64,000 nucleotides of DNA from Pseudophaeobacter flagellatus (GTDB lineage Bacteria > Pseudomonadota > Alphaproteobacteria > Rhodobacterales > Rhodobacteraceae): assembly GCF_021228235.1 (NCBI RefSeq), contig NZ_JAJQRG010000004.1:310001-374000 (forward strand). Reading direction: 5' to 3'. The notes beneath the pieces were generated by a model. It was not told the origin of the DNA and searched no databases. It saw only the letters and a program-made list of their open reading frames with translations. Positions 31,671 to 56,307 of this stretch are shown in pieces (position 1 is the stretch's first letter; the number at the start of each line of letters is the position of its first letter). The position numbers and the translations under genes are program-made.

Positions 31671-31680
31671 GGAGCTCTCC

Positions 31681-32154: not shown

Positions 32155-32170
32155 ACGATTTACCTCGTTT

Positions 32171-32275
32171 GAAAATCCCGCCCGGCGGGTTGCCGGGCAA
32201 CGCCAGGATTTTCCCGTCAAACCAAAGGCGTGCCTCTGGCCAAGCGGGAAGACGCTTGCGCCCCCATGCGGGGGC
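32171..32275 (-). repeat. Stacked inverted repeats between paaC and paaD
   Basis: Three foldable elements fill the paaC-paaD gap. At 32171-32213 an 8-bp outer stem (GAAAATCC / GGATTTTC) encloses a 7-bp inner stem (GCCCGGC / GCCGGGC). AAGCG/CGCTT lies at 32242-32257, and GCCCCC/GGGGGC with a 4-nt loop at 32260-32275. The last is closest to the paaC stop, the first is 17 bp upstream of paaD. Function could be partial termination or mRNA processing that alters PaaABC:PaaDE ratios, or a mobile palindromic unit. Confidence 0.55.
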
Positions 32276-32293
32276 TGGCACGGCCCTTCTGTT

Positions 32294-33067: not shown

Positions 33068-33351
33068 TACATTGCCCCCACTTCATCTGGGATGTCAAAG
33101 AACGTGGGATGGCGGTAGACCTTGCTCTCGGAAGGTTCATACAGCGGACCCTTGTCGCTGGGCGAAGAGGCCGCGATATTATTGGCCTCGACCACCCAGA
33201 TCGACACGCCTTCATTGCGGCGGGTATAGACATCGCGAGCGTTCTTGATCGCCATTTCCGCATCCGGCGCATGCAGGCTGCCGACGTGACGGTGGCTTAG
33301 ACCGTGCTGACCACGGATGAAGACTTCCCAGAGGGGCCATTCGTTTTTCAT
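33067..33351 (-). CDS. paaB: Phenylacetyl-CoA epoxidase bridging subunit
   Basis: 94 residues: WPLWEVFIRGQHGLSHRHVGSLHAPDAEMA, the conserved PaaB signature, through a Tyr/Arg-rich stretch. It connects two PaaAC heterodimers. 53 bp after paaA, overlaps paaC by one base. Confidence 0.95.
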   Translation of the reverse strand: MKNEWPLWEVFIRGQHGLSHRHVGSLHAPDAEMAIKNARDVYTRRNEGVSIWVVEANNIAASSPSDKGPLYEPSESKVYRHPTFFDIPDEVGAM

Positions 33352-33404
33352 AGCTCAGTTCTCCTGGCTGTGCAGTCCTGCGCGAGGGGCAGGGAAGCGG
33401 TTGT

Positions 33405-34382
33405 TTACTCGGCGGCTACCTTGCGGGCGGCCTTCTTGCGGGCATGCGCCAGCAAGCCATCGCGCACCCACTGGCCGTCTTGCCAGGCCTTGTTGCGCGC
33501 TGCGAGCCGGTCGGTGTTGCAGGGGCCATTGCCCTGGATCACATCAAAGAATTCGTCCCAATCGGGATCGGAATAGTCATAGTGACCGCGCTCTTCGTTC
33601 CATGTGATGCCTGCGTCTGGCAGGTCGAGCCCCAGGAATTCGATCTGCGGCACTGTCTGGTCGACAAATTTCTGGCGCAGCTCGTCATTGGTGTTCATCT
33701 TGATCTTCCAGGCCATCGACTGGGTCGAGTGCACGGAATCGGCATCTGACGGTCCAAACATCATCAGTGCCGGGAACCACAGCCGGTTGAGCGCGTCCTG
33801 TGCCATTTTCTTTTGCGCGGGCGTGCCGTTGGCCATCTTGCGGATGGCATCAAAGCCCTGGCGCGCATGGAAGCTCTCTTCTTTGCAGACCCGGATCATG
33901 GCGCGCGAATAGGGACCAAAGGAGGTCCGCTGCAGCGGCACCTGGTTCAAAATGGCCGCGCCATCCACCAGCCAGCCTACTGCGCCCATATCGGCCCAGT
34001 TCAGCGTCGGGTAGTTGAAGATGGACGAATATTTCATCCGCCCATCCAGCAGCATCTCGGTCAGCTCATCGCGGGAGACCCCCAGCGTTTCAGCTGCGCA
34101 ATAGAGGTAGAGGCCGTGGCCAGCCTCGTCCTGCACCTTGGCCAGCAGGATCGCCTTGCGTTCCAGTGTCGGCGCGCGGGTGATCCAGTTGCCTTCGGGC
34201 AACTGGCCGACAATTTCCGAATGGGCGTGCTGACCGATCTGGCGGATCAGGGTTTTGCGATAGCCCGCGGGCATCCAGTCCTTGGGCTCGATCTTTTCTC
34301 CGGCATCAATGCGGGCCTGAAAGGCGGCCAGTTTTTCCGGATCATCCGTTGAGGCTTCGGATTTGACCATCTGTGCATACAT
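33405..34382 (-). CDS. paaA: Phenylacetyl-CoA epoxidase catalytic di-iron subunit
   Basis: 325 residues. Di-iron carboxylate ligands in the helical bundle: the [15 protein letters not shown] segment (ExxH) and [12 protein letters not shown] (ExxH). It epoxidises the ring of phenylacetyl-CoA, using PaaE electrons, to ring-1,2-epoxyphenylacetyl-CoA. First gene of the operon, 30 bp after the thiolase gene. paaZ, paaG, paaH and paaK are not in the window. Confidence 0.96.
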
Positions 34383-34412
34383 GACTTGCTCCTCCCGATT
34401 GGGGTTACTGGC

Positions 34413-35615
34413 TTAGACGCGTTCCAGGATCAGGGCGGTGCCCTGACCGACACCAACGCACATGGTGCAGAGCGCATAGCGCCCGCCGGTGCGTTGCAAT
34501 TGATAGGCGGCTGTCAGCACCAGACGGGCACCGGACATGCCCAGCGGATGGCCAAGGGCGATGGCGCCACCATTGGGATTAACATGGGGGGCGTCATCGG
34601 CAATGCCAAGCTCCCGGAGGGTCGCCAGGCCTTGACTCGCAAAGGCCTCGTTCAATTCTATCACATCCATCTGTTCGATGGTCAGTCCAGTGCGGGCCAG
34701 AACCTTGCGGGTGGCGGGCACTGGGCCAATGCCCATGACACGGGGTTCAACCCCGGCGGCGGCCATGCCGACGATGCGGGCCATTGGTGTCAGCCCGTTC
34801 TTGGCCGCGGCGGCTTCGTTTGCCATCAGGATGGCGGCAGCACCGTCATTGACGCCCGAGGCATTGCCGGCAGTCACCGTCAGATCAGGGCCATTGACGC
34901 CCTTCAGCTTGCTCAGCTTATCCACACCAGTGCCAGGGCGGGGGTGTTCATCGGTGTCGACGATCAGCGCTTCGCCCTTGCGCTGGGGCACAGATACAGG
35001 CGTGATCTCATCGCCAAAGACACCTGCGGCATGCGCGGCGGCCCAACGGGCCTGACTGCGGGCGGCAAAGGCATCCTGGTCGGCGCGGCTGATGTCATAA
35101 TCGGCCGCGACATTGTCGGCCGTTTGCGGCATCGAGTCGGTGCCATGCAGCGCCTGCATTTTCTTGTTCACAAAGCGCCAGCCGATGGTGGTGTCATAAA
35201 CTGCATTGGCGCGGGTAAAGGCGGACGTGGCCTTGGGCATTACAAAGGGTGCCCGGCTCATGCTTTCGACCCCGCCTGCGATAGCCATATCATAATCGCC
35301 TGCGCGGATCCCTCGGGACGCCATGCCAACCGCATCCATGCCAGAGGCACAGAGCCGGTTGATGGTAGTGCCGGGCACATCCACGGGCAGACCTGCCAGC
35401 AGGGCGGCCATACGGGCCACATTGCGGTTGCTTTCGCCAGCCTGGTTAGCATCGCCAAAGATCACATCATCAATGCTGGCCCAATCGACCTGCGGATTGC
35501 GGGCGGCCAGCGCGGCGATCGGCGCAGCGGCCAAATCATCGGTGCGAACCTGGGATAGGGCGCCGCCGTAGCGGCCAATGGGGGTGCGGGTGGCATCGCA
35601 GATGAATGCATCCAT
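34413..35615 (-). CDS. 3-Oxoadipyl-CoA/acetyl-CoA acyltransferase (thiolase)
   Basis: 400 residues from ATG 35615; the upstream open frame is non-conserved. Active-site Cys89 in [10 protein letters not shown], then [23 protein letters not shown] (catalytic His) and [10 protein letters not shown] (second Cys). Close to PcaF/PaaJ, which cleaves 3-oxoadipyl-CoA (or its dehydro form) to succinyl-CoA and acetyl-CoA, the last step of the phenylacetate pathway. It probably heads the paa operon transcript from a promoter in 35616-35873. Confidence 0.88.
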
Positions 35616-37691: not shown

Positions 37692-37773
37692 TGGCGTTTG
37701 ATTATCCAGTGGTGCAGCAGGCCCGGCCTGCTGCTCGCCGCTCTGCTCTGGCTTTTGCAATAAGGACCTCCCG

Positions 37774-39390: not shown

Positions 39391-39403
39391 GGGGGGCACA
39401 GTT

Positions 39404-43326: not shown

Positions 43327-43977
43327 GTGGCAGGGCAGACCGAAGGGCTATTGAATGCGATCCTTGAGGATATCGACGCAGGGGCGTTAAATCCTGGGGA
43401 CCTGCTGGATGAGGCGGGGCTGGCCGCGCGCCATAACGTGTCGCGTACCCCAATTCGCGAAGCCCTGATCCAACTGGAAGCGGCGGGGCTGATCCGGCGT
43501 TTGCCGCGCAAGGGGGCGGTGCTGTTCAAGCCGACACTGGAAGAGTTTCTTGCGATCCTTGAAGTGCACGCCAGCCTGGAGGGCCAGGCGGCAGGGCTGG
43601 CGGCGCGGCGTATGACCCCCGATCAGGCCCGGGCGCTGGAGCAGGCGGTGCAGGCCTGTGAAGCCCATGCCGACAAAAAGGGCGATGGCGATCCCAATGG
43701 CTATTACCAGTTGAACCTGCAGTTTCATGCGGCGGTGGCCATGGGGGCGGGCAATCCGTTTCTGCTGGAGATGATCAAGACCAATGCGCGCAAGCTGATG
43801 GCCTATTATCGGGCGCGCTATCAGTATCCGGGGTCGATAGCGCAATCTGCCCGGGAACATCGCGAGATTGCCGAGCTGATATTTGCCCATGACCGCAGTG
43901 CGGCGCGGGCCAAGATGACTGAGCATGTGCAGTTTGATCAGGTCACGGTGATGGACCTTTTGGCGGCGCTTGGCTAG
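43327..43977 (+). CDS. GntR-family (FadR/FCD subgroup) transcriptional regulator
   Basis: N-terminal winged helix: ILEDIDAGALNPGDLLDEAGLAARHNVSRTPIREALIQLEAAGLI, with the classic SRTPIREAL recognition helix. C-terminal FCD ligand-binding domain with LEVHASLEGQAAGLAAR and FHAAVAMGAGNPF. About 216 residues from GTG 43327, which has AGGA nine bases upstream. A TTG at 43255 is an alternative start giving 240 residues. It probably regulates the preceding sulfatase gene. Confidence 0.82.
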   Translation: MAGQTEGLLNAILEDIDAGALNPGDLLDEAGLAARHNVSRTPIREALIQLEAAGLIRRLPRKGAVLFKPTLEEFLAILEVHASLEGQAAGLAARRMTPDQARALEQAVQACEAHADKKGDGDPNGYYQLNLQFHAAVAMGAGNPFLLEMIKTNARKLMAYYRARYQYPGSIAQSAREHREIAELIFAHDRSAARAKMTEHVQFDQVTVMDLLAALG

Positions 43978-44100: not shown

Positions 44101-44805
44101 TTAAGCGGCCTGGTCAAAGAACTGAGCCAGGCTTTGTGCGAAGAGCGCTTGATCTGCCTGTTGGCGCAGGCTGTCCTTGGCCCGGGCGTAGGCGGCAGTG
44201 CCAAGGCTGTGGCGCATTTCTTCGGTCAGGGCGGTGATGAAGTCATGGCTCATCTCGGGGTGGTGTTGGCTGGTCCAGATGTGGCTGCCTATGCAAAATC
44301 CCGCATTCAGCCCTCTGCTTTGTGCGGTTTCAATGGCATCGCCGGGCAGCCGGGCGACGTATTCGCTGTGAGAGCCGTAGAGGGAAAAATCTGCGGGCAG
44401 TTCCTGTGTCCAGGAGGGGCGGGTCTGCATATGATTCAGGATCAGCCCATGTACCCAGCCTTCGGGGTTTTGCGCCACCTGGCCACCAAGCGCCAGCGCG
44501 ATGGCCTGATGGCCAAAGCAGGCACCGAACAGGGGCAGCTTTTGGGCGTGCATGTCCTGTATCAGTGTCAGGAGTGGGTCGATCCAAGGCAGGTCGCTAC
44601 GGGTTGAGGCGGGGCTGCCTGTGATCATCACGCCATCAAAAGCCTGCAGATCTGTCGGAAAATCGTCGGCATGAATTTGAAAGGCGCTGCAGAGCCAATC
44701 GGGGCGCGCCATTTGAATAAGATGAGTGAACTTCTCTTCATCAAGGGGGTGCTTTGCGGCAAAGGTGCTCTTGTCGGTATTCGTGACCAGAATGGCTAAG
44801 TGCAT
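44101..44805 (-). CDS. Class I glutamine amidotransferase-like protein
   Basis: 234 residues from ATG 44805 (another in-frame ATG is at 44817). GATase triad: Cys96 in GACFGHQAIALALGG, His182 and Glu184 in SQHHPEM. This is the GMP-synthase-like type 1 GATase group (YfeJ-like), often a stand-alone enzyme of unknown acceptor. It is divergent from the P450 gene with 79 bp between them. In gamma-glutamyl amine pathways a GATase-fold hydrolase removes the glutamyl group. This protein is not the PuuD/C26 type, so that role here is only inferred. Confidence 0.82.
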   Translation of the reverse strand: MHLAILVTNTDKSTFAAKHPLDEEKFTHLIQMARPDWLCSAFQIHADDFPTDLQAFDGVMITGSPASTRSDLPWIDPLLTLIQDMHAQKLPLFGACFGHQAIALALGGQVAQNPEGWVHGLILNHMQTRPSWTQELPADFSLYGSHSEYVARLPGDAIETAQSRGLNAGFCIGSHIWTSQHHPEMSHDFITALTEEMRHSLGTAAYARAKDSLRQQADQALFAQSLAQFFDQAA

Positions 44806-44884
44806 GGAATAGCTCATCAGTTTTACATTTACATATTTATGAGCTTCAATAGTATACATAGTAGAGATATTCGGGAAGCCCAAT

Positions 44885-46174
44885 ATGACCATCTGGACAC
44901 CACAGGACGACGGCTATGCTGATCTCAGCAGCCATGACAGTTTTGCCCATGGCGCGCCGCACAACACCTTTGCCCGGCTACGTCGCGACGATCCGATACA
45001 TTGGACCCAGTACCCCGGCGGGGAAAATTTTTGGTCGGTGACCCGCTATGAGGATATCACCCGGATGAACAAGAATACCGAGGTGTTTTCCTCGGCGCGC
45101 GGGATCCGCATGGAGGATCAAAGCTATGAGGAATATCTGGCGCGACGGACCTTCCAGGAAACTGATCCGCCAGAGCATTCGCAGGTGCGCATGAAGCTGA
45201 TGAAGGCTTTTTCCAAGACCAGTATGGCGCAGTATGAGCAGGAAATTCGCGATATCTGCGCGGAAATTCTGGATCCGGTACTGGAACAGGGGGAGTTTGA
45301 TGCCACCAAGCAGATTGCCCGGGCCCTGCCGATGCGGATGCTGGGACGGGTGGTTGGCCTGCCCGAGGCGGATTTGCCCTGGTTGGTGGAAAAGGGTGAT
45401 GCGCTGATTGCCAATACCGATCCGGATTTTACGGCCCATGTAATGGACAAGCTGGATACCGATGAGTTTCGGTTGATGCCTTTCAATTCCCCGGCCGGGG
45501 CGGAACTGTATCTTTATGCCAAGCAGTTGATGGCCGACAAAGCCAAAGCGGGCGATACGGCAGGGGTGCTGAACATGATCCTAAAACCGGGCAAGGATGG
45601 CTCGATCATTTCCGAGACGGAGTTTCGCAACTTTTTCTGTCTTTTGGTGGCGGCGGGAAATGACACCACGCGCTATTCCATTGCGGCAGGGATCCAGGCG
45701 CTGTGTCACCAGCCTGAGCTGTTGGCGCAGATGGAGGCGGGCGGTGCCATCTGGGATACGGCAGCGGATGAGATCATCCGCTGGGCCACCCCGGCGATCT
45801 ATTTTCGCCGCACCGCAACACGCGATATCGAGGTGCACGACAAGCTGATCCGCGAAGGGGATAAGGTGCTGTATTGGTTTGCTTCGGCCAATCGCGATGA
45901 TAGCTATTTTGACGATCCTTTTCGGGTCAACCTAATGCGCAGCCCCAACCGGCATCTTTCTTTTGGGCAGTTTGGCCCGCATGTCTGCCTGGGCATGTGG
46001 TTGGCGAGGCTGGAGGTGACGGTGCTGTTTCAAGAACTGGCCAAGCGCATCAGCCATATCGAGGCTGCCGGGCCGCATAAGTTTCTGCGATCAAATTTTG
46101 TCGGCGGCATAAAAGAGCTGCCGGTACGCGTGACACTGTGCTCGCGCCACTTTTGCCAGGATGCGCGAAAATAG
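44885..46174 (+). CDS. Cytochrome P450 monooxygenase
   Basis: 429 residues, class I bacterial soluble type. I-helix oxygen-activation motif AGNDTT (about 256-261), K-helix ExxR (DEIIRW, about 294-299), meander FDDPFRVNLMR, and heme loop LSFGQFGPHVCLG with thiolate ligand Cys368. The FGxxGPHxCLG form resembles CYP124/125/142-type P450s. No ferredoxin or ferredoxin reductase gene is adjacent. It lies upstream of a glutamine-synthetase-like ligase in the same direction, with 142 bp between. Confidence 0.92.
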   Translation: MTIWTPQDDGYADLSSHDSFAHGAPHNTFARLRRDDPIHWTQYPGGENFWSVTRYEDITRMNKNTEVFSSARGIRMEDQSYEEYLARRTFQETDPPEHSQVRMKLMKAFSKTSMAQYEQEIRDICAEILDPVLEQGEFDATKQIARALPMRMLGRVVGLPEADLPWLVEKGDALIANTDPDFTAHVMDKLDTDEFRLMPFNSPAGAELYLYAKQLMADKAKAGDTAGVLNMILKPGKDGSIISETEFRNFFCLLVAAGNDTTRYSIAAGIQALCHQPELLAQMEAGGAIWDTAADEIIRWATPAIYFRRTATRDIEVHDKLIREGDKVLYWFASANRDDSYFDDPFRVNLMRSPNRHLSFGQFGPHVCLGMWLARLEVTVLFQELAKRISHIEAAGPHKFLRSNFVGGIKELPVRVTLCSRHFCQDARK

Positions 46175-46316
46175 TAGCCCCCGCCTAGCCTTGAATATGT
46201 TAAGTAATGCCATGTTTCTGAAACCGGAACAGGTCTCTGTTCCAAGATGAAGACGGACTGCAATAGATCAAACACAGTCGCCTCTGCAGATTGACCAACC
46301 TAGAAGGATCAAAGCC

Positions 46317-47606
46317 ATGAAAACCCGCTTGCGTGCGATGTTCTGCGACCACCTTAGCATCATGCGGGGGAAGTATCTGCCAGCGGCCAAGATTGGCGAT
46401 GATGACACCCGGTTTTGTCGTTCAGTTTTTGGGACACACTATGATCGCGACCTGTTGGATGCGCCGGGGGCGATGGTCAAACAGGGGATGCCAGATATGG
46501 AGCTGCGCTGGCAGCATGACGATATTCGCAACAGCTGGCATGCCAATACCAATGTCGTGCTGGGCGATCTGTTTGATGTGGATGGGGTGCCGCTGTCCCT
46601 GTGCCCACGCGGGGCGCTGAAGCGGGCTGTTGCGGGCTGGCAGGCGCGCGGCTTGCAGCCCAAGGTGGGGATCGAGCTGGAAGCCTATGCGCTGCAGGCG
46701 GATGAGCGCGGCCGCTTGATGCCCTATGACGCGCCGGGTGGCGTGGTCTACGGCACTGGGCCATTTGCCGATCCTTTGCGGTTTAACGACCGGATTTGGG
46801 CGATGGCAGATGAGATGGGTTTTTCGCTGGATATGATCACGGCGGAATTTGACTCGCCGCAGTTTGAATACACCTTGACCTTTGATGATGCGGTGAAGGC
46901 GGTGGATGATATCGTGCTGTTCCGTCTTATGGCGCGAGAGATCGCGCTGGAATATGGGATCGTCCTGACCTTCATGCCCAAACCAGTGCCCGAGGCCGGC
47001 GGGTCTGGTATGCATATCAACTATTCCTTCGTGAACGAGGTGGGCGGCAATGCCCTGTCCTCGGGGTCGCGTGGCGGGCCAGAACATATGAACGATCTGG
47101 CGCGGGGCTGCCTGGCGGGTGTTGTGAATCACCATAAAGGGCTGGCGGGGCTGATCGCGCCCACCGCCAACAGCTATATGCGACTGCAGCCGGGGTCTCT
47201 GTCGGGCTATTGGCAGAATTGGGGGGGGGATCATCGCAATGTCACCACTCGGATCAGCTCAGAAGGCGGGGCCAAGGCTCGGCTGGAGCATCGCATGGCG
47301 GATGCATCCGCCAATCCGTATACGGCGGTTGCTGCAGTGTTGCAGGCCTCTTTGTTGGGGGTGGAGCAGGGCTACGCACTGCCTGCGATGGAGACAGGAG
47401 ATGGTTTCGATCGGACGGATGCGCGCGAGGGTACGGCGATTGACCTGAAAGGCGCGGTGGCTGATTTGGAACGCGACCATGCTCTGTGCAAAGCGGTGGG
47501 GGGCGATCTGATTGCCAACCATGTCTTTATGAAGCGCAAGGAAGCACGCAAGACCCGCGATCTGGAAGGCGACGGGATGCGCGATTTTTATGTGCATTTC
47601 GTCTGA
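46317..47606 (+). CDS. Glutamine synthetase-family ligase (gamma-glutamyl amine ligase-like)
   Basis: 429 residues, shorter than GlnA (about 470). Catalytic fold features: KVGIELEAYAL (metal-binding Glu), AEFDSPQFEY, GSGMHINYSF, and RLEHRMADASANPY at the C-terminus. In GlnA the equivalent loop is GSGMHxHxS; here Asn235 takes the place of the second His. Such divergence is common in PuuA/GlnA-like enzymes that ligate glutamate to amines other than ammonia. Ribosome-binding site AGAAGG. Co-directional with the P450. A role in activating an amine substrate is inferred. Confidence 0.8.
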   Translation: MKTRLRAMFCDHLSIMRGKYLPAAKIGDDDTRFCRSVFGTHYDRDLLDAPGAMVKQGMPDMELRWQHDDIRNSWHANTNVVLGDLFDVDGVPLSLCPRGALKRAVAGWQARGLQPKVGIELEAYALQADERGRLMPYDAPGGVVYGTGPFADPLRFNDRIWAMADEMGFSLDMITAEFDSPQFEYTLTFDDAVKAVDDIVLFRLMAREIALEYGIVLTFMPKPVPEAGGSGMHINYSFVNEVGGNALSSGSRGGPEHMNDLARGCLAGVVNHHKGLAGLIAPTANSYMRLQPGSLSGYWQNWGGDHRNVTTRISSEGGAKARLEHRMADASANPYTAVAAVLQASLLGVEQGYALPAMETGDGFDRTDAREGTAIDLKGAVADLERDHALCKAVGGDLIANHVFMKRKEARKTRDLEGDGMRDFYVHFV

Positions 47607-48065
47607 CATTCTGGCGCTTTTCCGCTTTGTGAAGCGGGAGGTGTTCTGTCCCGAGCTTTGCGGCATCAAGGGTTTGCGGGATTGTAAGCCTTTCGTCACA
47701 TGGATTGCGGCAAGTTAATCCGGACAGTTCGGGCCGTTTTAACCAGTTGGCGGCCTGAAATCAGTGCGGATACCCAGGGCGAACCGGTGTTCAAGACGGC
47801 AAACGATACCGGTTGATCCTGCGACAGCGTCGTTGCTTGCCATATCACGGTGCCGCGCCGCGTGCGCAGCGCTATGAGAGGCAGCGGGCCCAAAGCATAT
47901 GCTTCGGGCCCGCCATGGTATCTGGTGGCAGCCTCCCTTTGGTCGGCTGCGGTTGTGTCTTGGGCCGGTGCTTGGGCCATTTTCCTGCGCTGTCCTGTGC
48001 GGGCAGGCGAGAGGCATTATTTGGTTGGGGTAATTTCCACCTCGCACCAAATTTTCAGTCTTATA
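47607..48065. other. 459-bp gap with no confident gene
   Basis: Between the converging GS-like and aminotransferase genes. A 6-bp hairpin CCGCTT/AAGCGG sits at 47622-47637, 15 bp after the GS-like stop, and may help end its transcript. The only sizeable frame on the minus strand (47696-47980, 94 codons) has several rare codons (ATA, AGA, AGG), no good ribosome-binding site and no recognisable domain. I do not call it. Confidence 0.5.
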
Positions 48066-49421
48066 TCAACTGACTGCGGCAAAACCTATGTCGAGAGCAG
48101 CAAGGATGTCGGTGACGTCCTGCGCGCTAAGGATCAGGGGGGGCGACAGGATGATATTGGGGCCAGAGACCCGCACCATGGTACCGTTCTGATAGGTGAC
48201 CTCTTGCAGCGTGGCGAGGGTCTTTTTGTCGGCTGCCGATTTGGTGTCGCGGTCTGCAACCAGCTCCATTGCGCACATCAGCCCGTGACCACCGCGCACA
48301 TCGCCGATCAGCGCGTATTTTTGTTGCAGGGCCTGCAGCCCTTGGTGCAGCTCTTGCCCACGGGCGGCGGCGTTTTGTGGCACATTCAGGCGCTGGGTTT
48401 CCTGTAGGCAGGAAAGGGCAGCGGCGGCACCCACGGGATGGCCTGAATAGGTATAGCCATGGCCAATGGCGGCGCGGCCTGTTTCGTCCTGTTCAAATAC
48501 CTCGGCCACCTGATCCGCGATCATCACTGCGCCAAAGGGGAAATAGCCATTGGTGATCGCCTTGGCGGTACACATGAAATCTGGCTGCACCCCCCAGTGG
48601 CGCGATCCGCTCCAGGATCCGGTGCGGCCAAAGGCGGTGATCACCTCATCCGCGATCAACAGGATACCATATTTGTCGCAAATTTCACGCACGCCGGGCA
48701 TGAAGCTTGCATGTGGGGGGATCACCCCGCCGGCGCCCAGGATCGGCTCCATGATGAAGGCGGCGATGGTGCCAGCCCCCTGAAAGGTGATCTCGTCCTC
48801 CAGCGCCTGCAGGCAGAGCTGCGCCAGGCGTTCCGGGTCGCTCTCGTTGAAGGGATTGCGGTAGGTATAGGGCGCGGGGATGTGATGGCAACCGGGCAGG
48901 AGCGGTTCATACTGGGTGCGGAAGTTGGCATTGCCATTGACCGAGGCCCCGCCCATGTGGGTGCCGTGATAGCCCTTCTTCAGGCTGAGGAATTTGGTTC
49001 GTGCAGCCTCGCCACGGATCTTGTGATACTGCCGTGCCAGGCGCAGGGCAGTTTCTACGGAATCAGACCCCCCCGAGGTAAAGAATGCCCGGCTGAGACC
49101 ATCTGGGGCAAAGAAGGTGCGCAGCTCTTCCGCCAGCTGGATCACCTGATCGTTGCTGGTGCCGCGAAAGGTTGAATAATAGGGCAGCACATCCAGCTGC
49201 GCGGCGATGGCATCTTTGACGGGCTGGCAGGAAAATCCGAGGTTGACGTTCCACAGCCCCCCCACTGCGTCAATGACTTCATGGCCATCGATGTCGCGGA
49301 TCCGCACGCCACTGGCCCCCGTGATGATCGTTGGCGGATTGGCCAGGCTGTCGGCAGGATGCGCCATCGGATGCCAGAGCGATTTTGCATTGTGTTCTTT
49401 GAGGAAATTGGAATCGTTCAT
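48066..49421 (-). CDS. Class III aminotransferase (omega-amino acid/diamine type)
   Basis: 451 residues. PLP lysine Lys287 in CTAKAITNGYFPFGA, cofactor acid IADEV (Asp258), SGGSDSVETALRLARQYH and YTYSGHPVGAAAALSCL. This matches omega-transaminases that use beta-alanine, putrescine, taurine or 4-aminobutyrate-like donors with pyruvate. Convergent with the GS-like gene and followed by the IclR gene on the same strand. The substrate is inferred from context to be an omega-amino acid. Confidence 0.88.
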   Translation of the reverse strand: MNDSNFLKEHNAKSLWHPMAHPADSLANPPTIITGASGVRIRDIDGHEVIDAVGGLWNVNLGFSCQPVKDAIAAQLDVLPYYSTFRGTSNDQVIQLAEELRTFFAPDGLSRAFFTSGGSDSVETALRLARQYHKIRGEAARTKFLSLKKGYHGTHMGGASVNGNANFRTQYEPLLPGCHHIPAPYTYRNPFNESDPERLAQLCLQALEDEITFQGAGTIAAFIMEPILGAGGVIPPHASFMPGVREICDKYGILLIADEVITAFGRTGSWSGSRHWGVQPDFMCTAKAITNGYFPFGAVMIADQVAEVFEQDETGRAAIGHGYTYSGHPVGAAAALSCLQETQRLNVPQNAAARGQELHQGLQALQQKYALIGDVRGGHGLMCAMELVADRDTKSAADKKTLATLQEVTYQNGTMVRVSGPNIILSPPLILSAQDVTDILAALDIGFAAVS

Positions 49422-49482
49422 CTGGTAAACTCCTGATCAGGTCCGGAGAGGACCGGGGTATCTTGAAGGAAAAACGGCAGGG

Positions 49483-50262
49483 TCACGAGGCTGCGCTCTG
49501 GGGGTAATCCGCAGGCGCGCGGCCCCCGATACGATGGGTTAGGGCTGCCCCGGCGCGCCGCAGGGCTGCGCGAATGGTGTCTTGTTGCGCGGCAGTCATG
49601 CGGGCAGCGGGGGCGGCCACCGCCAGTGCCCCAATGGCGCGATGGTCGGCACCAAAAATCGGCACCGCATGGGAATGCACTTCCAGCTCAAAGCTGCCCA
49701 GCGTATCGGCCAGACCGGTCTGGCGGATCTGTTCCAGCTTGCTGCGGATGAGATCGGGGTCAACCAGCGTTAGGTTTGTGTGACTTTTCAGGGGTTGCGA
49801 CAGAATGCTGTCGACAAACTGTGGATCGGCATAGGCCAGGATCGCGAGGCCCGAGCTGGTGGCATGATAGGTTACCGTCTGGGCATCCTCCATCGTGACC
49901 TTGGTGGCATGGCGCGGCGAATAGGCATGGCTGAGGGTCTGCACCCAGCTGCCATGTCCCAACGACACATGGGTGGTTTCGCCGGTTTCATCGCTCAGCT
50001 CGCGCAGGATCCGGCGCGAAACGGACAGGATCGGCGTCGATGCCTCGCGCAGGGCGGCCAGATGCAAAACCTGCGGTCCCAGCCGATAGGCGCGGTCGCC
50101 TTCTCCCTGCTCAACGAATCCCGCCGCCTGCAACTCGCCCATCAGGCGATACACCGTTGCCTTGTTCATGTTTGACAGGCGGGTGAGGTCGCTTAACCCG
50201 ATTTCGGGTCGGTCGGGCGCGAAATAATTCAACAATGACAATGCCTTGGTGACAGTTCCCAT
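49483..50262 (-). CDS. IclR-family transcriptional regulator
   Basis: 259 residues from ATG 50262; a TTG at 50316 is an alternative start. N-terminal winged helix: VTKALSLLNYFAPDRPEIGLSDLTRLSNMNKATVYRLMGELQAAG. C-terminal GAF-like effector domain: ETTHVSLGHGSWVQ, YHATSSGLAILAY, AVPIFGADHRAIGALAVAAP. Divergent from the TctC gene; operator candidates lie between. It likely controls the transporter/ALDH operon and perhaps the aminotransferase 61 bp upstream of it (50262 side). Confidence 0.9.
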   Translation of the reverse strand: MGTVTKALSLLNYFAPDRPEIGLSDLTRLSNMNKATVYRLMGELQAAGFVEQGEGDRAYRLGPQVLHLAALREASTPILSVSRRILRELSDETGETTHVSLGHGSWVQTLSHAYSPRHATKVTMEDAQTVTYHATSSGLAILAYADPQFVDSILSQPLKSHTNLTLVDPDLIRSKLEQIRQTGLADTLGSFELEVHSHAVPIFGADHRAIGALAVAAPAARMTAAQQDTIRAALRRAGAALTHRIGGRAPADYPQSAAS

Positions 50263-50336
50263 GCGCTGATCTGGTCTCCATCTGGGTGAATACAGGGCAT
50301 TGGTTCGCAAAAACAAACACCCAAGATGTTATTTTG

Positions 50337-50363
50337 TTGACAGATAAGCGGGTGGACTGTCAA
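50337..50363. promoter_or_regulatory. TTGACAG/CTGTCAA inverted repeat upstream of tctC
   Basis: Perfect 7-bp arms separated by 13 bp, 73 bp before the TctC start. The left arm includes a consensus -35-like TTGACA, so it may be both promoter and operator. Confidence 0.5.
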
Positions 50364-50380
50364 TCTAAATTCAAACCGAT

Positions 50381-50397
50381 GGTTCAAATAATGAACC
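50381..50397. promoter_or_regulatory. GGTTCA-aataa-TGAACC inverted repeat upstream of tctC
   Basis: Perfect 6-bp arms with a 5-bp AT spacer, 39 bp before the TctC start, in a region divergent from the IclR gene. The GTTCA/TGAAC pattern is typical of IclR-family operators, which fits the adjacent regulator. Confidence 0.5.
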
Positions 50398-50435
50398 GCA
50401 CCTGCTGAAACCTCAGCACCAACCGGGAGACTAAA

Positions 50436-51380
50436 ATGCAATTGACCAATCTTGTGAAAGGGGCCGCTGCGGCGGCAGCTCTGGGCATGAGCGCAGTGGC
50501 TGCGCAGGCGGAATACCCAGAAAAGCCAGTTAGCTTTATCGTGCCCTGGCCCCCCGGCGATCTGGAGGATGTGCTGACGCGGATGATTGCCGATGATTTT
50601 GAGGCCGAATATGGCGTGGCAGCTGCCGTGGTGAACAAGCCCGGCGGCGGCGGTGGGCCGTTCCCCGGCGCAATCGAAGTGGCCAATGCGCCGGCCGATG
50701 GGTACACAGTTGGCTCTTTTGTGATCGGCGTGCCGGTAATGGGTCACCAGATCGACATCCCGCCGCTGACGCCGGCCAAGTTTGACCCGCTGGGGATTTT
50801 CCTGACCTATCCCTTTGTGGTCGCCACCTCGGCTGATGCGCCATATTCAACGATGGAAGAACTGGCCGCCTACGCCAAGGAAAATGACGTGGCGCTGGGC
50901 CATTTTGGCGATGTGCTGACGCCAACCCAGGTGACCAAGGCCTTTGCCAAGAACGCCGGATTCGAGTGGGGATCGGACGCCGCATTTGATGCGCTGGATT
51001 GCAATACGCTGGCCTCGGGGGATGCGGATGTCATTAACACGACACTGCAGCTGATCCTGCCCTGTCTGGACCAGATCAAAGTGCTGGTTTCGATCACCGA
51101 TGAGCGCATTCCGCTGGTTCCCGATGCCCCCGCCATCGGAGAGCTGGATGCAGATCTGAACATCGCCCTGTGGAACGGCTTGTTTGTATCAAAGGATACG
51201 CCGCAGGATGTGCGTGAAAAGATCATCGCCGTGGCCGAGAAAACCATGATGAGCGATCGTGCCCAGGCCGTGGCGGAAGAGACCGGTGCCTTGGTCTACT
51301 GGCAGGACGCCGACCAAAGCGCCAGCCGCGTGGCCACTGATATTGCCACTATGGCGAAAATCGGCGCTCTGCTTGAGTAG
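50436..51380 (+). CDS. TctC/Bug-family tripartite transporter solute-binding protein
   Basis: 314 residues from ATG 50436 behind GGGAGA. Signal peptide ending AAQA (about residue 24), then the Bug fold: EYPEKPVSFIVPWPPGDLED, VVNKPGGGGG (ligand-binding loop) and PADGYTVGSF. The acidic residue in the first loop often contacts the ligand in Bug proteins. It captures carboxylate or amine solutes in the periplasm. A terminator-like hairpin follows, as usual for such genes. Confidence 0.9.
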   Translation: MQLTNLVKGAAAAAALGMSAVAAQAEYPEKPVSFIVPWPPGDLEDVLTRMIADDFEAEYGVAAAVVNKPGGGGGPFPGAIEVANAPADGYTVGSFVIGVPVMGHQIDIPPLTPAKFDPLGIFLTYPFVVATSADAPYSTMEELAAYAKENDVALGHFGDVLTPTQVTKAFAKNAGFEWGSDAAFDALDCNTLASGDADVINTTLQLILPCLDQIKVLVSITDERIPLVPDAPAIGELDADLNIALWNGLFVSKDTPQDVREKIIAVAEKTMMSDRAQAVAEETGALVYWQDADQSASRVATDIATMAKIGALLE

Positions 51381-51395
51381 TCAGCCAAATATCTT

Positions 51396-51429
51396 GCCGG
51401 GGCCTGCTGTGGCCCCGGCTTTCTGTTTC
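51396..51429 (+). terminator. Partial terminator between tctC and tctB
   Basis: GCCGGGGCC (51396-51404) pairs perfectly with GGCCCCGGC (51111+ offset: 51411-51419) around a 6-nt loop, followed by TTTCTGTTT. Being inside the operon, it probably limits read-through so that the binding protein is made in excess. Confidence 0.75.
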
Positions 51430-51449
51430 TGCGCAAAAAAGATCCCCCA

Positions 51450-51980
51450 ATGACAACGGAACGAGAACGCCGCTTTGTCGGACCCCGACGCGGCCAGCTG
51501 ATTTTTGCCCTGGTTTTTCTGACCCTTTCAGTGCTGCTCTTGGCGCTGATCGGAGAGCAGACCGCTTGGGTCAAAAAAACCCAGCTTTTTGCCCAGCCCC
51601 GGTTCTGGCCTGCGGTCAGCCTTGGTGGCATGGTGCTTCTGGGGGGCTTGCATGTCTACGCCCTGCCATGGCGCCGCACCTCGCGCTATGACCTGTGGGA
51701 AGCCAGACTATGGGGGCGCAGCCTGGAATTTGCAGTTTGGTTCATGGGCTACGTGCTATTGGTGCCGCTGGTTGGCTACCTGCCTGTGACCCTGGTCTTT
51801 GTGCCGCTGCTGGCGCGCCGCATGGGCTATCGCAGTGGCTGGATGCTGGGCATTTCCGTCGGCTTTGCGGTGGCGGTTGTGGTGGTGTTCAAGGTGGTTC
51901 TGGGGGTGAGAATTCCCGGTGCGCTGCTTTATGACTACCTGCCGGCTGGTCTGCGCAGTTTCTTTATTCTGTATCTCTAA
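51450..51980 (+). CDS. TctB-family tripartite transporter small membrane subunit
   Basis: 176 residues with about four hydrophobic helices, the TctB size and topology (ends with a FKVVLGVRIPGALLYD-type segment). Start ATG 51450. Works with TctA as the transport unit. 14 bp before tctA. Confidence 0.85.
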   Translation: MTTERERRFVGPRRGQLIFALVFLTLSVLLLALIGEQTAWVKKTQLFAQPRFWPAVSLGGMVLLGGLHVYALPWRRTSRYDLWEARLWGRSLEFAVWFMGYVLLVPLVGYLPVTLVFVPLLARRMGYRSGWMLGISVGFAVAVVVVFKVVLGVRIPGALLYDYLPAGLRSFFILYL

Positions 51981-51994
51981 GGTCGGGGTGTTCG

Positions 51995-53614
51995 ATGGAT
52001 CTTTTCCTCTCTGCGATTGACATCCTGATGCGCTGGGACGTGGCGCTGGCGCTGCTTGCCGGATCGGTTGGCGGGGTTTTGATTGGTGCGATCCCCGGCG
52101 TTGGCCCAGCTGTGGCGATTGCCATTTTGCTGCCCGCGACCTTTTCGATGGATCCCATCGTTGGGCTAACGGTGCTGTTGGGGATCTATGGCTCGTCGAT
52201 GTATGGCGGTGCGATCCCGGCGATCTTGATTAATACGCCGGGCACGGCTGTCAATGCGCTGACCACCTATGATGGTTATCCGATGACCGCCCGTGGAGAG
52301 CCACGCCGTGCCCTGAGCCTTGCCTATTCAGCCAGCTTTTTTGGCGGAGTTTTCTCTGTCATCTGCCTGATCCTGTTTGCCCCGGTTCTGGCCAAGGTGG
52401 CGCCGATGTTTGGCAGCCGTGAAATCTTTCTCGCCGCCCTGTTAGGTCTGCTGCTGGTGGTTGTGGCACATCGTGGCCAGGCGTTGATTGCCGGGGCACT
52501 GGCCTGTCTGGGGATCTTTTTGAACTCTGTCGGTATGGAGCCTGTGAAATACACCCAGCGCTATACCTTCGGGCAGGATTTTCTGAGCAGCGGCGTCAAT
52601 CTGATCGTGGTGGTTCTGGGGCTTTTTGCCCTAAGCCAGGCCTTCGTCTTGCTGATGGATGAAGACGAAAAAGTACATCTGAACAAGCTACGCGGCGGCA
52701 TGTTCCAAGGGCTGCGCGAACTGGCTCGCCATCCACGTGTCACCGCGGTTTCAGCCAGCTTTGGCGTCTTGATGGGGATGATTCCAGGTGTCGGAGAGTT
52801 CACTGCCCAGTTCATGTCCTACACCTACGCGCAGAAAACCTCTAAGCGGCCGCAGGATTTTGGCAATGGTTCTTCCGAGGGGCTGATCGCGGCGGAAACC
52901 GCAAATAATGCCGTGCCGGCGGCGGCCATGGTGCCGCTCTTGGCGCTGGGCATTCCGGGCGAGGCGCTGACAGCAATGATGCTAAGCGTCTTTTATGTGC
53001 ACAATGTGGTGCCGGGGCCGGCGTTGTTTCAGAACGACATGGATTTTGTCGTCGCGCTCTATCTGGCGCTGCTGGTGCTGAATGTTCTGGTGCTCGTCTT
53101 TCTGCTTTTTGCGACCCGGTCGCTGGTGCAGGTTGTGAAAATCCCCAATCGGTTCCTTGGGGTGTGCATTCTGACCCTGAGCTTTGTTGGCGTCTATTCG
53201 CTGCGCAATTCAGCCACGGATTGCCTGATTGCGGCGGGGTTCGGCATCTTTGGCTTCATCCTAAAACGGCTGTCGCTGCCGGCGGTTCCAATCATTCTGG
53301 GGATGGTGCTGGGCGGCATCATGGAGGTCAAGCTGCGGGCTGGTATGGCTCGGGTCAAAGAGCCGCTTGATTTCATCAATCGACCGATATCATTCATTCT
53401 TTTCATCATCATCATCTTGGTTCTTGCAAGCCACCTGCTGCGCGTCTGGCGGGATCGCAAGGAGCTAAAGGAGGCCGAATGGCAGACCAAAACCGCATCA
53501 ACCAGCTTCGGGCAGCTGATGTCGCGCCGCAAAAACTCTTTCTTGAAGGATCGTGGCAAAGAGGTTCGGGCACGCCACTCGAAGTTACTTCGCCGATTGA
53601 GGGGGCTGTTCTAA
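51995..53614 (+). CDS. TctA-family tripartite transporter large membrane subunit
   Basis: 539 residues. Multi-span membrane protein with the TctA signature IGAIPGVGPAVAIAILLPATF and the second repeat GVLMGMIPGVGEFTAQFM. The family is about 500 residues; the frame here runs 45 codons beyond the ALDH start (53479), giving a basic, non-membrane tail. This creates a 136-bp coding overlap. The reading frame is uninterrupted, so this may be a real C-terminal extension or an eroded stop codon. Confidence 0.88.
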   Translation: MDLFLSAIDILMRWDVALALLAGSVGGVLIGAIPGVGPAVAIAILLPATFSMDPIVGLTVLLGIYGSSMYGGAIPAILINTPGTAVNALTTYDGYPMTARGEPRRALSLAYSASFFGGVFSVICLILFAPVLAKVAPMFGSREIFLAALLGLLLVVVAHRGQALIAGALACLGIFLNSVGMEPVKYTQRYTFGQDFLSSGVNLIVVVLGLFALSQAFVLLMDEDEKVHLNKLRGGMFQGLRELARHPRVTAVSASFGVLMGMIPGVGEFTAQFMSYTYAQKTSKRPQDFGNGSSEGLIAAETANNAVPAAAMVPLLALGIPGEALTAMMLSVFYVHNVVPGPALFQNDMDFVVALYLALLVLNVLVLVFLLFATRSLVQVVKIPNRFLGVCILTLSFVGVYSLRNSATDCLIAAGFGIFGFILKRLSLPAVPIILGMVLGGIMEVKLRAGMARVKEPLDFINRPISFILFIIIILVLASHLLRVWRDRKELKEAEWQTKTASTSFGQLMSRRKNSFLKDRGKEVRARHSKLLRRLRGLF

Positions 53615-54963
53615 CCACGCTGGAAGGTGCCTCTGCGGCTGATGTCGAAAAGGCGGTCGCCTCGGCGCGCCGTGCCTATGATGATCGCCGTTGGGCGGGG
53701 CAGTCCCCCGCCGCACGCAAGAAGGTTCTGTACCGTATCGCAGAGCGTATCGAAGCCGACGCGGTTGAACTGGCCGTCCTGGGGGTGCGTGACAATGGCA
53801 CCGAATTCAACATGGCCCTGAAGGCAGAACCAGGATCCGCCGCCGGGACCTTTCGCTATTATGCCGAGGCTCTGGACAAGATTGCGGGCGAAGTGGCCCC
53901 GACGACATCGGATGTTCTGGGGCTGGTACACCGGGTGCCGGTTGGCGTGGTGGGGGCGATTGTGCCCTGGAACTTTCCCCTGATGATCGGTGCCTGGAAG
54001 CTGGCGCCAGCCCTGGCTATGGGCAATTCGGTGGTGCTGAAACCGGCCGAGACAGCTTCGCTGACCTTGTTGCGACTGGCTGAGATCTGTGTCGAGTGCG
54101 GCTTGCCGGATGGGGTGTTCAATGTGGTCACCGGCAGCGGCGCAGAGACGGGCGCGGCGCTGGCAGGGTCGATGGGGGTTGATGTCCTGGCCTTTACCGG
54201 TTCGGGCGGGACGGGGCGCAAGCTGCTGGAGGCCTCGGCGCGCTCGAATCTGAAACGCTGTTATCTGGAGCTGGGGGGCAAATCCCCCAATATCGTTTTT
54301 GCCGATGCACCGGATCTGGCCAAGGCGGCCAAAGTTTCGGCCATGGGGATTTTTCGCAATTCCGGCCAGGTCTGCGTCGCCGGGGCGCGGCTCTTGGTGG
54401 AGGCCTCGGTACATGATGAGTTTGTTGCGCGGCTGACGGCTGAGGCAGAGGCGCTGCGGGTGGGGGATCCGCTGGATCTCGGCACGCAGATCGGCGCAGT
54501 GAATTCTGAAGAGCAGCTGCGGCGCAACCTGTCTTTTATGGATATGGCCCGTGCAGAAGGGGGGCGGGTGATCACCGGTGGCGCGCGGATCCTGGCTGAA
54601 ACGGGCGGCAGCTATATGGCGCCAACAGTTGTAACGGGCGTCGCACGCGATCACGCCCTGTTCCAGCGCGAGGTCTTTGGTCCGGTCCTGTCAGTGAGCG
54701 CCTTTGACAGCGAGGCAGAGGCCTTGAGCCTGGCCAATGCCACCGACTTTGGTCTGGCGGCGGGGGTTTGGACGGCGGATCTGTCGCGGGCCCATCGCAT
54801 GGTCGCGGGCATCCGGGCTGGCGTGGTGCATGTGAATACCTATGGCGGTGCGGATAATACCGTACCGCTGGGCGGGGTTGGCCAATCGGGCAATGGGCAT
54901 GACAAATCCCTGCATGCCCTGGACAAATACCTGGATCTCAAAACCGCCTGGATCCAGTTGTAA
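53479..54963 (+). CDS. Aldehyde dehydrogenase, NAD(P)-dependent
   Basis: 494 residues, full length. Catalytic Glu264 in LELGGKSPNIVF and nucleophile Cys299 in NSGQVCVAGARLL; PWNFPLMIGAWKLAPAL and FTGSGGTGRK are the cofactor loops. ATG 53479 is preceded by AAGGAGG, so this start is strong although it lies inside tctA. Similar to betaine-aldehyde/aminoaldehyde dehydrogenases; the natural aldehyde is unknown. It is the probable oxidising step of the island. Confidence 0.9.
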   Translation: MADQNRINQLRAADVAPQKLFLEGSWQRGSGTPLEVTSPIEGAVLTTLEGASAADVEKAVASARRAYDDRRWAGQSPAARKKVLYRIAERIEADAVELAVLGVRDNGTEFNMALKAEPGSAAGTFRYYAEALDKIAGEVAPTTSDVLGLVHRVPVGVVGAIVPWNFPLMIGAWKLAPALAMGNSVVLKPAETASLTLLRLAEICVECGLPDGVFNVVTGSGAETGAALAGSMGVDVLAFTGSGGTGRKLLEASARSNLKRCYLELGGKSPNIVFADAPDLAKAAKVSAMGIFRNSGQVCVAGARLLVEASVHDEFVARLTAEAEALRVGDPLDLGTQIGAVNSEEQLRRNLSFMDMARAEGGRVITGGARILAETGGSYMAPTVVTGVARDHALFQREVFGPVLSVSAFDSEAEALSLANATDFGLAAGVWTADLSRAHRMVAGIRAGVVHVNTYGGADNTVPLGGVGQSGNGHDKSLHALDKYLDLKTAWIQL

Positions 54964-55068: not shown

Positions 55069-56307
55069 ATGAAGGTTGAAAAGACCATATTGGTGGTCGG
55101 CACCTATGATACCAAAGAGGATGAGCTGTGGTATTTGGCAGAGATCATTCGTGGCCAGGGGGGGGGCGTTTTGTCGATGGATGTGAGCGTGCTGGGAGAT
55201 CCGCTGCGCCCGGTGGATGTGAGTAAGCACGAGGTGGCCCGTGCCGGAGGCGGTAGCATCAAGGCGGCGATTGCGAGTGGCGATGAGAATATCGCGATGC
55301 AGATCATGGGGGCGGGAGCAGCTGCTGAGGCGCGTCAGTTGCATCTGGCTGGGCGCATTGATGGGGTGGTGGTCTTGGGGGGCACCATGGGCACCGATCT
55401 GGCGCTGGATCTCTGCGCGGCGCTGCCAGTTGGGGTGCCAAAATATGTGGTTTCTACTGTTGCCTTTTCGCCCTTGATGCCGCCGGATCGGATCCCGGCG
55501 GATGTGCAGATGATTCTTTGGGCTGGCGGGCTGTATGGGTTGAATTCGATTTGCAAGGCGGCACTGAGCCAAGCCGCCGGGGCGGTCTTGGGGGCGGCGC
55601 GTGCGGTTGAGGCGCCACGGCGGCAGCGCCCACTGATTGGGATGACCTCTTTTGGCAAGACCGTGCTGCGGTATATGGTGCAGCTGAAGCCCGCGCTGGA
55701 GGCCCGGGGGTTTGAGGTTGCAGTGTTTCATGCCACCGGCATGGGGGGGCGCGCCTTTGAGAGCCTCGCAGGCGAGGGCGCCTTTGCTGCGGTGTTGGAT
55801 TTCGCACCGCAGGAGGTTTCAAATCATTTGTTTGGTGGGCTGTCGGCGGGGGCGGATCGCATGACCAATGCGGGCCGGGTCGGCACGCCGCAGTTGGTGG
55901 CTCCGGGGTGTTATGATCTGGTGGATTTTGTTGGCTGGCAGGGGGTGCCAACCGCACTGGAGGGCCGCCCGACCCATGCCCATAACCGGTTGTTGTCTTC
56001 CGCAATACTGGATGGGCAGGAGCGCCGGGCGGTGGCGCGGTCGATCTGTGATAAGTTGTCAGGGGCGAGGGCACCAGTGGCGCTGTTTCTGCCTGAACGG
56101 GGCTGCAACGAGTGGGATCGCCCCGGAGGAGACCTGCAGGATGCGGCGGGGCTCGCGGCGTTTTGCGCAGAGATTCGCGCTGTCTGCCCTGATAGTGTCG
56201 ATCTGTACCCACTGGACTGTCACATCAATGACGCGGCGTTTTGTGACAAAGTGTTGGAGGTTTTTGACGCCTGGGTGACAAGTGGGGTCATCAAGGCGGG
56301 GCTATAG
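55069..56307 (+). CDS. Tm-1-like ATP-binding domain (UPF0261) protein
   Basis: 412 residues starting at ATG 55069 behind GGGAG. UPF0261 features: VVGTYDTKEDE at the N-terminus, HxxGxG-like loops (GGGSIKAAI), VVLGGTMGTDLAL, GMTSFGKTVLRYM and FHATGMGGRAFESLA. The plant homologue Tm-1 binds a viral replicase; bacterial members are of unknown function and usually adjoin a TIM-barrel PEP hydrolase-like gene, which is not present here. Terminator follows at 56406. Not obviously part of the ALDH operon because repeat copy B intervenes. Confidence 0.82.
   Translation: MKVEKTILVVGTYDTKEDELWYLAEIIRGQGGGVLSMDVSVLGDPLRPVDVSKHEVARAGGGSIKAAIASGDENIAMQIMGAGAAAEARQLHLAGRIDGVVVLGGTMGTDLALDLCAALPVGVPKYVVSTVAFSPLMPPDRIPADVQMILWAGGLYGLNSICKAALSQAAGAVLGAARAVEAPRRQRPLIGMTSFGKTVLRYMVQLKPALEARGFEVAVFHATGMGGRAFESLAGEGAFAAVLDFAPQEVSNHLFGGLSAGADRMTNAGRVGTPQLVAPGCYDLVDFVGWQGVPTALEGRPTHAHNRLLSSAILDGQERRAVARSICDKLSGARAPVALFLPERGCNEWDRPGGDLQDAAGLAAFCAEIRAVCPDSVDLYPLDCHINDAAFCDKVLEVFDAWVTSGVIKAGL

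Follow-up and report, generated by a model that had tools for sequence, protein, structure and literature searches.

A roseobacter gene set pairing a cytochrome P450 with a glutamine synthetase-like ligase may catabolize aromatic biogenic amines

Introduction

Gene sets that pair a glutamine synthetase-like (GS-like) ligase with an oxidative enzyme are known from several bacterial pathways for amine catabolism. Here we report on a set of this kind in Pseudophaeobacter flagellatus, located in a 64-kb stretch of DNA (hereafter the window; positions 310,001 to 374,000 of contig NZ_JAJQRG010000004.1) of its 4.29-Mb assembly (GCF_021228235.1). The set includes a cytochrome P450, a putative gamma-glutamyl amine ligase and a class I glutamine-amidotransferase-like (GATase) protein, and its partners among relatives suggest that an aromatic amine is the substrate.

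The ipu (isopropylamine) region of plasmid pTC1 from P. aurescens TC1 resembles the set in carrying genes for a GS-like ligase (IpuC), a P450, a ferredoxin, a reductase and GATases together. However, its substrate is aliphatic, its ligase is 28% identical to that of the window, and no hpa, transaminase or TctCBA genes are annotated in its 21-kb stretch. On pTC1 (locus L126), two GATase-like genes lie upstream of the run of P450, ferredoxin, reductase and ipuC. The Puu pathway for putrescine in Escherichia coli shares the logic of a PuuA-type ligase, a gamma-glutamyl hydrolase and a PuuC-like aldehyde dehydrogenase (ALDH), but it uses the oxidase PuuB instead of a P450, and PuuA and the window ligase are 27% identical. 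Mycobacterial pip/mor systems employ CYP151 with a 3Fe-4S ferredoxin and also include a GS-like gene and a GntR regulator. In contrast, the relatives described here have a [2Fe-2S] ferredoxin (PF00111). The homoprotocatechuate (hpa) meta-cleavage pathway, which is classically entered by the action of HpaBC on 4-hydroxyphenylacetate, supplies the same downstream genes that are found in the P. flagellatus genome and in linked relatives, but this genome holds no HpaB-family (PF11794) match at 1e-20.

The aniline and 1-naphthylamine systems (AtdA1-A5 and NpaA1-A5) likewise combine a GS-like gamma-glutamyl ligase with a GATase-like enzyme and an oxygenase to yield an aromatic diol. They differ in using a Rieske dioxygenase rather than a P450, in acting on a ring amine and, as named in that report, in being five-gene sets that lack a transaminase (PMC11335346). 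The same report states that the GATase of the aniline system hydrolyses the glutamyl amide back, not forward, and thereby holds its level low (PMC11335346); the GATase of the roseobacter set may act in either direction. Thus, the plan of ligase, GATase and oxygenase is already known from the aniline, 1-naphthylamine and ipu systems, whereas a P450 form of it that is linked to hpa genes and serves an aromatic C6-C2 amine would seem to be a new version. Among the titles listed from open-licence literature, none describes a P450/GS-like aromatic-amine pathway of roseobacters, which is weak evidence of absence, and none ties a P450 to both an aromatic C6-C2 amine and hpa genes.

Results

The window joins two units (Table 1). 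Unit A consists of a GntR-family regulator, the divergent GATase, the P450 and the ligase, and unit B of a transaminase, an IclR-family regulator, the TctCBA transporter, an ALDH and a UPF0261 protein. In our judgment, the set somewhat probably catabolizes a phenethylamine-type aromatic biogenic amine, with tyramine favored, by way of gamma-glutamylation and P450 hydroxylation to homoprotocatechuate. Assignment to the aromatic C6-C2 amine class is moderately supported, and we infer the identity of the substrate, every reaction, the order of the third and fourth steps given below, and the cargo of TctCBA. All genes named in an initial annotation of this region (P450, ligase, GATase, transaminase, IclR, TctCBA and ALDH) are intact open reading frames (ORFs), correctly placed and assigned to the right families, although its list omitted the GntR and UPF0261 genes and the GATase start probably needs adjustment.

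The P450 and the ligase are conserved as a pair. Of 220 loci in named genomes, we fetched the best 80, a choice biased toward close relatives. In every one of these, the ligase lies after the P450 on the same strand, and a divergent GATase precedes the P450 (at 40% identity or above in 75). A GntR gene lies beyond the GATase in 72; of the eight loci without one, four have less than 7 kb upstream. In a survey of 295 Rhodobacteraceae genomes, one per genus, matches at 1e-60 place the P450 in 57 (including one contig-end fragment, G166) and the ligase in 59. Both occur in 56 genomes, no more than 3 kb apart in 55 and 25 kb apart in the exception. This adjacency, together with that in the 80 fetched loci, indicates that the pairing exceeds chance. 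The initial annotation had staked its proposal in advance on the co-occurrence of these two genes across relatives, and they do co-occur; its broader view of an amine-catabolic set built on a gamma-glutamyl ligase and a P450 is likewise supported. The closest P450s among the named genomes, at 91-92% identity, come from Pseudophaeobacter, Phaeobacter and Roseobacter strains, and a class-wide sample of 210 genomes has the P450 at 1e-100 in five, including the P. flagellatus genome itself.

When the window ligase and 12 relatives are aligned beside E. coli GlnA and PuuA, all 13 proteins keep E129, E131, E212, E220, H269, R321, R339, R344, E357 and R359. D50, S53 and E327, which we take to be ammonium-site residues, are replaced, with Thr in place of S53 in four. 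At these three positions the window protein has C, V and L and PuuA has P, V and Y, and the residues are also lost in IpuC of pTC1. Because the residues for glutamate, ATP and metal are retained and the ammonium-site residues are lost, as in PuuA and IpuC, the protein is predicted to be an organic-amine gamma-glutamyl ligase and not a glutamine synthetase. It falls under the NCBIfam cut-offs of every family matched (for the PuuA equivalog, 166.6 bits versus a cut-off of 650). In six loci (L077, L090, L099, L101, L103 and L105), the ligase is just 57-63% identical to that of the window versus 75-78% for the P450, as if the ligase had been swapped. Divergent-type GS-like genes also stand beside TctC/TctA without a P450 in L142 (G271:C15) and L141 (G145:C5), which ties the ligase to the transporter.

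Aromatic catabolic genes recur next to unit A. Forty of the 80 fetched loci carry them upstream, 22 in the form of hpa or aromatic-decarboxylase genes (although L107 holds only a piece of HpaI) and another 18 in the form of paaA; the upstream stretch is shorter than 9 kb in nine of the 80. A divergent clade of eight loci (L131-L138), whose P450s are 50-56% identical to that of the window, has the GATase beside the P450 in every case, TctC and TctA in seven of the eight (the contig of L132 spans 7 kb) and, within the stretch read, hpa genes in five (L133, L134, L135, L137 and L138). In L135 and L138, genes for Tct, GATase, P450, ligase, HpaF-E-D, decarboxylase and HpaG-H all lie on one strand. 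Further hpa genes are found in L140/L141 (P450 69% identical) and L145 (70%). Examples of HpaD, HpaE and HpaH score over their curated cut-offs, and those of HpaF, HpaG, HpaI and HpaR score under theirs. In L145, the transaminase and the P450 flank HpaF-E-D-G-H on a single strand, and no GATase was found by tblastn at 1e-8. Next to the divergent clade lies a gene for a small protein; a pyridine-ring role was considered for this protein and set aside, as it has no Pfam or NCBIfam match.

The association extends beyond physical linkage. In the genus survey, HpaD (1e-90) occurs in 50 of the 57 genomes with the P450 versus 43 of the 238 others, one of these 93 scoring under the family cut-off, whereas HpaB (PF11794 at 1e-20), used as a control for genome size, is found in 7 of 57 versus 21 of 238; the Fisher values (p=3.5e-23 and p=0.45) ignore ancestry above genus and are to be taken as rank, not probability. 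The P. flagellatus genome itself encodes HpaD with an adjoining decarboxylase on contig C28, and HpaF, HpaE, HpaG, HpaH and HpaI on contig C3. Its HpaD and HpaE score over the cut-offs, while F, G, H and I were identified by tblastn at 57-85% identity to the genes of relatives. The solved proteins that best match its decarboxylase are DOPA and tyrosine decarboxylases, with DOPA decarboxylase 7xin the nearest (5e-116).

The strongest single observation for an aromatic link comes from L168 and L169, two congeneric genomes that belong to a different family of Alphaproteobacteria. Here, a single run encodes an HpaE-like ALDH, a LigB-type dioxygenase, an HpaG-like FAH protein, an ADC-family protein, a decarboxylase, the P450 (67-68% identical to that of the window), the ligase, a ferredoxin and a ferredoxin reductase. 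The L168 decarboxylase matches DOPA decarboxylase 7xin at 2.7e-201. A plasmid of Streptomyces canus carries a comparable set that lacks the decarboxylase (P450 37% and ligase 33% identical), and plasmid DNA of Novosphingobium also places a P450-ligase pair beside ring-cleavage genes of the same kind. The LigB-type dioxygenases tested score 125-131 bits versus the HpaD_Fe cut-off of 316. Since clusters of both the HpaD type and the LigB type hold the pair, it is tied to catechol ring cleavage with two dioxygenase families.

The P450 has the haem-Cys region FGQFGPHVCLG and the I-helix motif AGNDTT, both read from the sequence, and is predicted to hydroxylate the gamma-glutamyl amine. Its nearest solved relatives are CYP125MRCA (whose name marks it as a reconstructed ancestor), CYP126 and CYP124. 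As the initial annotation had noted, its redox partner is not encoded in the window, where the sole PF00111 match, one of 12 in the genome, lies in paaE. However, de novo ORF clustering reveals a [2Fe-2S] ferredoxin gene (PF00111) no more than 400 bp past the end of the ligase gene in 51 of the 78 readable loci (two of the 80 being too short), so that these relatives, unlike the window, encode ligase, P450, GATase and ferredoxin together as in ipu-type pathways. The 27 readable loci without a linked ferredoxin (L035-L039, L044, L046-L049, L051-L054 and 13 others) include the closest relatives of the window and keep the P450 and the ligase. A [2Fe-2S] protein that shares 39% identity with the cluster ferredoxin of relatives is encoded on contig C26 of the same assembly and may serve the P450.

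The GATase shows candidate catalytic residues (Cys in GACFGHQ, His and Glu in HHPE), and is likely to be a gamma-glutamyl amide hydrolase, judging from its family. Its ORF extends to 44892, but the 8-bp overlap with the start of the P450 gene depends on translation from the first ATG. Since the best family alignment starts at residue 29, and since the orthologue annotated in Ruegeria TM1040 is separated from the P450 by 52 bp, the true start probably lies near 44805-44817.

Units A and B are statistically associated, but unit B also occurs by itself. Its transaminase is present at 40% identity or above inside the fetched stretch in 51 of the 80 loci, and its UPF0261 protein, by the same measure, in 33. 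Orthologues of the transaminase (matches at about 68% identity or above, plus a few fragments) occur, among the matches listed, in at least 47 of the 57 genomes with the P450 versus at least 46 of the 238 others, and lie within 20 kb of the P450 in at least 26. The second of these counts rules out unit B as specific to unit A. Even among genomes with the orthologue, HpaD is found in 42 of 47 with the P450 versus 27 of 46 without it (p=0.0009). The solved structures nearest the transaminase are 5lh9 (an omega transaminase) and 6s54, and the enzyme is predicted to convert the amine to an aldehyde; the ALDH is predicted to oxidise the arylacetaldehyde. The ALDH start lies 136 bp within tctA in another frame (53479-53614), and the Ruegeria TM1040 counterparts are annotated with a 118-bp overlap. 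Solved relatives of TctC are weak matches (4x9t, which is uncharacterised, BugD, Bug27 and terephthalate-binding proteins) and point to no particular ligand.

Elsewhere in the window, a block made up of a complete set of paa genes (paaABCDE at 30597-34382) and a thiolase gene probably serves C6-C2 aromatic catabolism as a neighbor, not a member, of the set. In Ruegeria TM1040, paa genes immediately precede unit A. In the window, the interval that separates the paa genes from unit A holds a block of its own (35874-41401), formed by an AtuA-like gene and genes for acyl-CoA carboxylase-like subunits. Sulfatase/PehA-like genes, which score under cut-offs, adjoin both aromatic-amine loci, unit A in the window (41554-43212) and the HpaD and decarboxylase genes in L152 (15123-16718); their products might split sulfate esters and so liberate amines or phenols.

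Table 1. Features of the window that belong to, or flank, the proposed amine-catabolic set (positions are those of the window).
Feature	Coordinates	Strand	Basis or remark
paaE-D-C-B-A (phenylacetyl-CoA epoxidase) and 3-oxoadipyl-CoA thiolase	30597..35615	-	Each over an NCBIfam cut-off
GntR-family regulator, start of unit A	43327..43977	+	NCBIfam GntR-type matches, under cut-offs
Class I glutamine-amidotransferase-like (GATase) hydrolase, putative	44101..44817	-	PF00117
Cytochrome P450	44885..46174	+	PF00067
GS-like gamma-glutamyl amine ligase, putative	46317..47606	+	PF00120 (Gln-synt_C)
Gap after ligase (459 bp), ferredoxin position in relatives	47607..48065		No ferredoxin gene here
Class III omega-transaminase	48066..49421	-	Aminotran_3; PRK07481 above cut-off
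IclR-family regulator of unit B	49483..50316	-	Family match
TctC solute-binding protein	50436..51380	+	PF03401
TctB	51450..51980	+	PF07331
TctA permease	51995..53614	+	PF01970
Aldehyde dehydrogenase (Aldedh)	53479..54963	+	Best NCBIfam score PuuC, under its cut-off
UPF0261 / Tm-1-like protein, member of unit B	55069..56307	+	Family match

Methods

Genes in several loci were called with a simple home-made caller, except that L137, L145 and L146 were read by tblastn. Some minus-strand reference sequences had no start codon, and their frame was kept. Co-occurrence tables for the P450, ligase, HpaD, HpaB and transaminase were compiled by hand from search output. The decarboxylase tally covers the best 75 matches by E-value (74 genomes) of 138 genomes, and its linkage counts are lower bounds.

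Discussion

The gene content described above suggests the following route. An amine would be taken up, or be made by the aromatic-L-amino-acid decarboxylase encoded elsewhere, and the GS-like ligase would join L-glutamate to it through the gamma-carboxyl group. In the third step, a [2Fe-2S] ferredoxin and a reductase would supply the P450, which would hydroxylate the gamma-glutamyl amine, most likely on the ring. In the fourth, the GATase-like hydrolase would remove the glutamyl group or, as in the aniline system, would merely hold the glutamyl amide at a low level. The class III transaminase might then convert the amine to an arylacetaldehyde, the ALDH would oxidise this to homoprotocatechuate, and HpaD-E-F-G-H-I, encoded elsewhere in the genome, would cleave and degrade the ring. 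Because these last enzymes act on an acetate side chain, a C6-C2 amine is the expected substrate. TctCBA probably carries an anionic aromatic and not the free amine. Tyramine is respired by Phaeobacter DSM 17395 and not by CIP 105210, according to one report (PMC4148982).

Other substrates deserve consideration. The initial annotation had favored a cyclic or secondary aliphatic amine (piperidine, pyrrolidine or morpholine), which the P450 would open to give an omega-amino acid for the ligase, transaminase and ALDH. These last two enzymes would fit such an intermediate, and the P450, ligase, GntR regulator and ferredoxin resemble the mycobacterial pip/mor set. However, the genes that travel with the pair are hpa, aromatic-amino-acid decarboxylase and paa genes, HpaD co-occurs with the P450 across genera, and the ferredoxin of relatives is of the [2Fe-2S] type; we therefore dropped this account as first choice and consider it unlikely. 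Quite improbable is an aniline-type arylamine, for which the ligase and GATase would act as AtdA1 and AtdA2 and the P450 would replace the Rieske dioxygenase to give a catechol. The logic of ligase, GATase and oxygenase would be the same as in the aniline system (PMC11335346), but the idea was rejected because the linked HpaD, HpaE and HpaH, with examples over their cut-offs, act on compounds that carry an acetate side chain; the decarboxylase and the transaminase would also have no role. We give still less credence to a small aliphatic amine such as isopropylamine, to be turned into an amino alcohol by ligase, P450 and hydrolase. The ipu region does encode GATase, P450, ferredoxin, reductase and IpuC in a row, yet this IpuC is distant from the window ligase and the partner genes here are aromatic.

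A more serious competitor, although we doubt it, is that units A and B and the aromatic genes lie together merely because roseobacters keep catabolic islands side by side. In that case, the P450 and the ligase would have some different amine as their substrate, or the P450 would modify a decorated aromatic amine, for instance by demethylating methoxy- or N-methyl-tyramine. Consistent with this are the frequent occurrence of the unit-B transaminase without unit A, the 40 of 80 fetched loci that show no aromatic genes upstream, and locus L170, in which HpaB (over cut-off) and an HpaC-type reductase (under cut-off) lie beside the P450-ligase unit (L170:13260-15717). Genome size and shared ancestry can also inflate Fisher values. 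However, the HpaB control is flat, and in Streptomyces and a second family the link to ring cleavage is found again, with different enzymes. Within the aromatic-amine hypothesis, a role for the P450 as a mere substitute for HpaBC is ruled out by L170, which has both, and by the genomes that have HpaD and no P450, most of which also lack HpaB. Perhaps, as a tentative and rather doubtful extension, the P450 route is portable across Alphaproteobacteria and Streptomyces: an aromatic amino acid would be decarboxylated, protected by gamma-glutamylation and ring-hydroxylated by the P450. In its compact form (L168, L169 and S. canus), whose run includes neither GATase nor transaminase, the LigB-type dioxygenase would cleave the ring of the still-glutamylated catecholamine.

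Several observations weigh against catabolism of a phenethylamine-type amine to homoprotocatechuate by this set. Apart from the half of the fetched loci that show no aromatic genes upstream and the transaminase orthologues in genomes without the P450, no hpa gene was seen in the stretch read of L131, L132 and L136 of the divergent clade. HpaD is not matched at 1e-90 in seven of the 57 genomes that have the P450, including four that are 99-100% complete, and the hpa genes of P. flagellatus itself are unlinked to the window. The GATase is undetectable by tblastn at 1e-8 not only in L145 but also in L168, L169, L123, L124 and L130, and therefore the hydrolase step would not be general. No transaminase lies inside the runs of L168 and L169; a class-III-like ORF, 29% identical, stands on the other strand beside the run in L168, and none was seen in L169. 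The LigB-type dioxygenase of L168, at 131 bits, is below the HpaD_Fe cut-off, the solved proteins nearest the P450 are lipid and sterol hydroxylases, and TctC-type proteins usually bind carboxylates. HpaB is present in 7 of the 50 genomes that have both the P450 and HpaD, and it is absent from 35 of the 43 genomes in which HpaD occurs without the P450. Should DOPA be the preferred substrate of the decarboxylase, the dopamine formed would already have both hydroxyls and the P450 would have to act otherwise. This possible preference, the HpaBC genes beside the unit in L170 and the GATase-free compact clusters together weaken the simplest version, from tyramine to dopamine. Moreover, the proposed pathway is a computational prediction from gene neighborhoods.

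If the set does act on aromatic biogenic amines, a substrate class and a mechanism would be given to a P450, a ligase and an amidotransferase known here by family alone, with the P450 present in about one-fifth of the sampled Rhodobacteraceae genera and in Ruegeria TM1040. A P450 branch would be added to the gamma-glutamyl amine pathways. Such a route would also offer roseobacters that lack HpaBC a possible entry into homoprotocatechuate degradation. Roseobacters are associates of algae, and certain algae produce tyramine or dopamine; the idea thus bears on algal-bacterial exchange.

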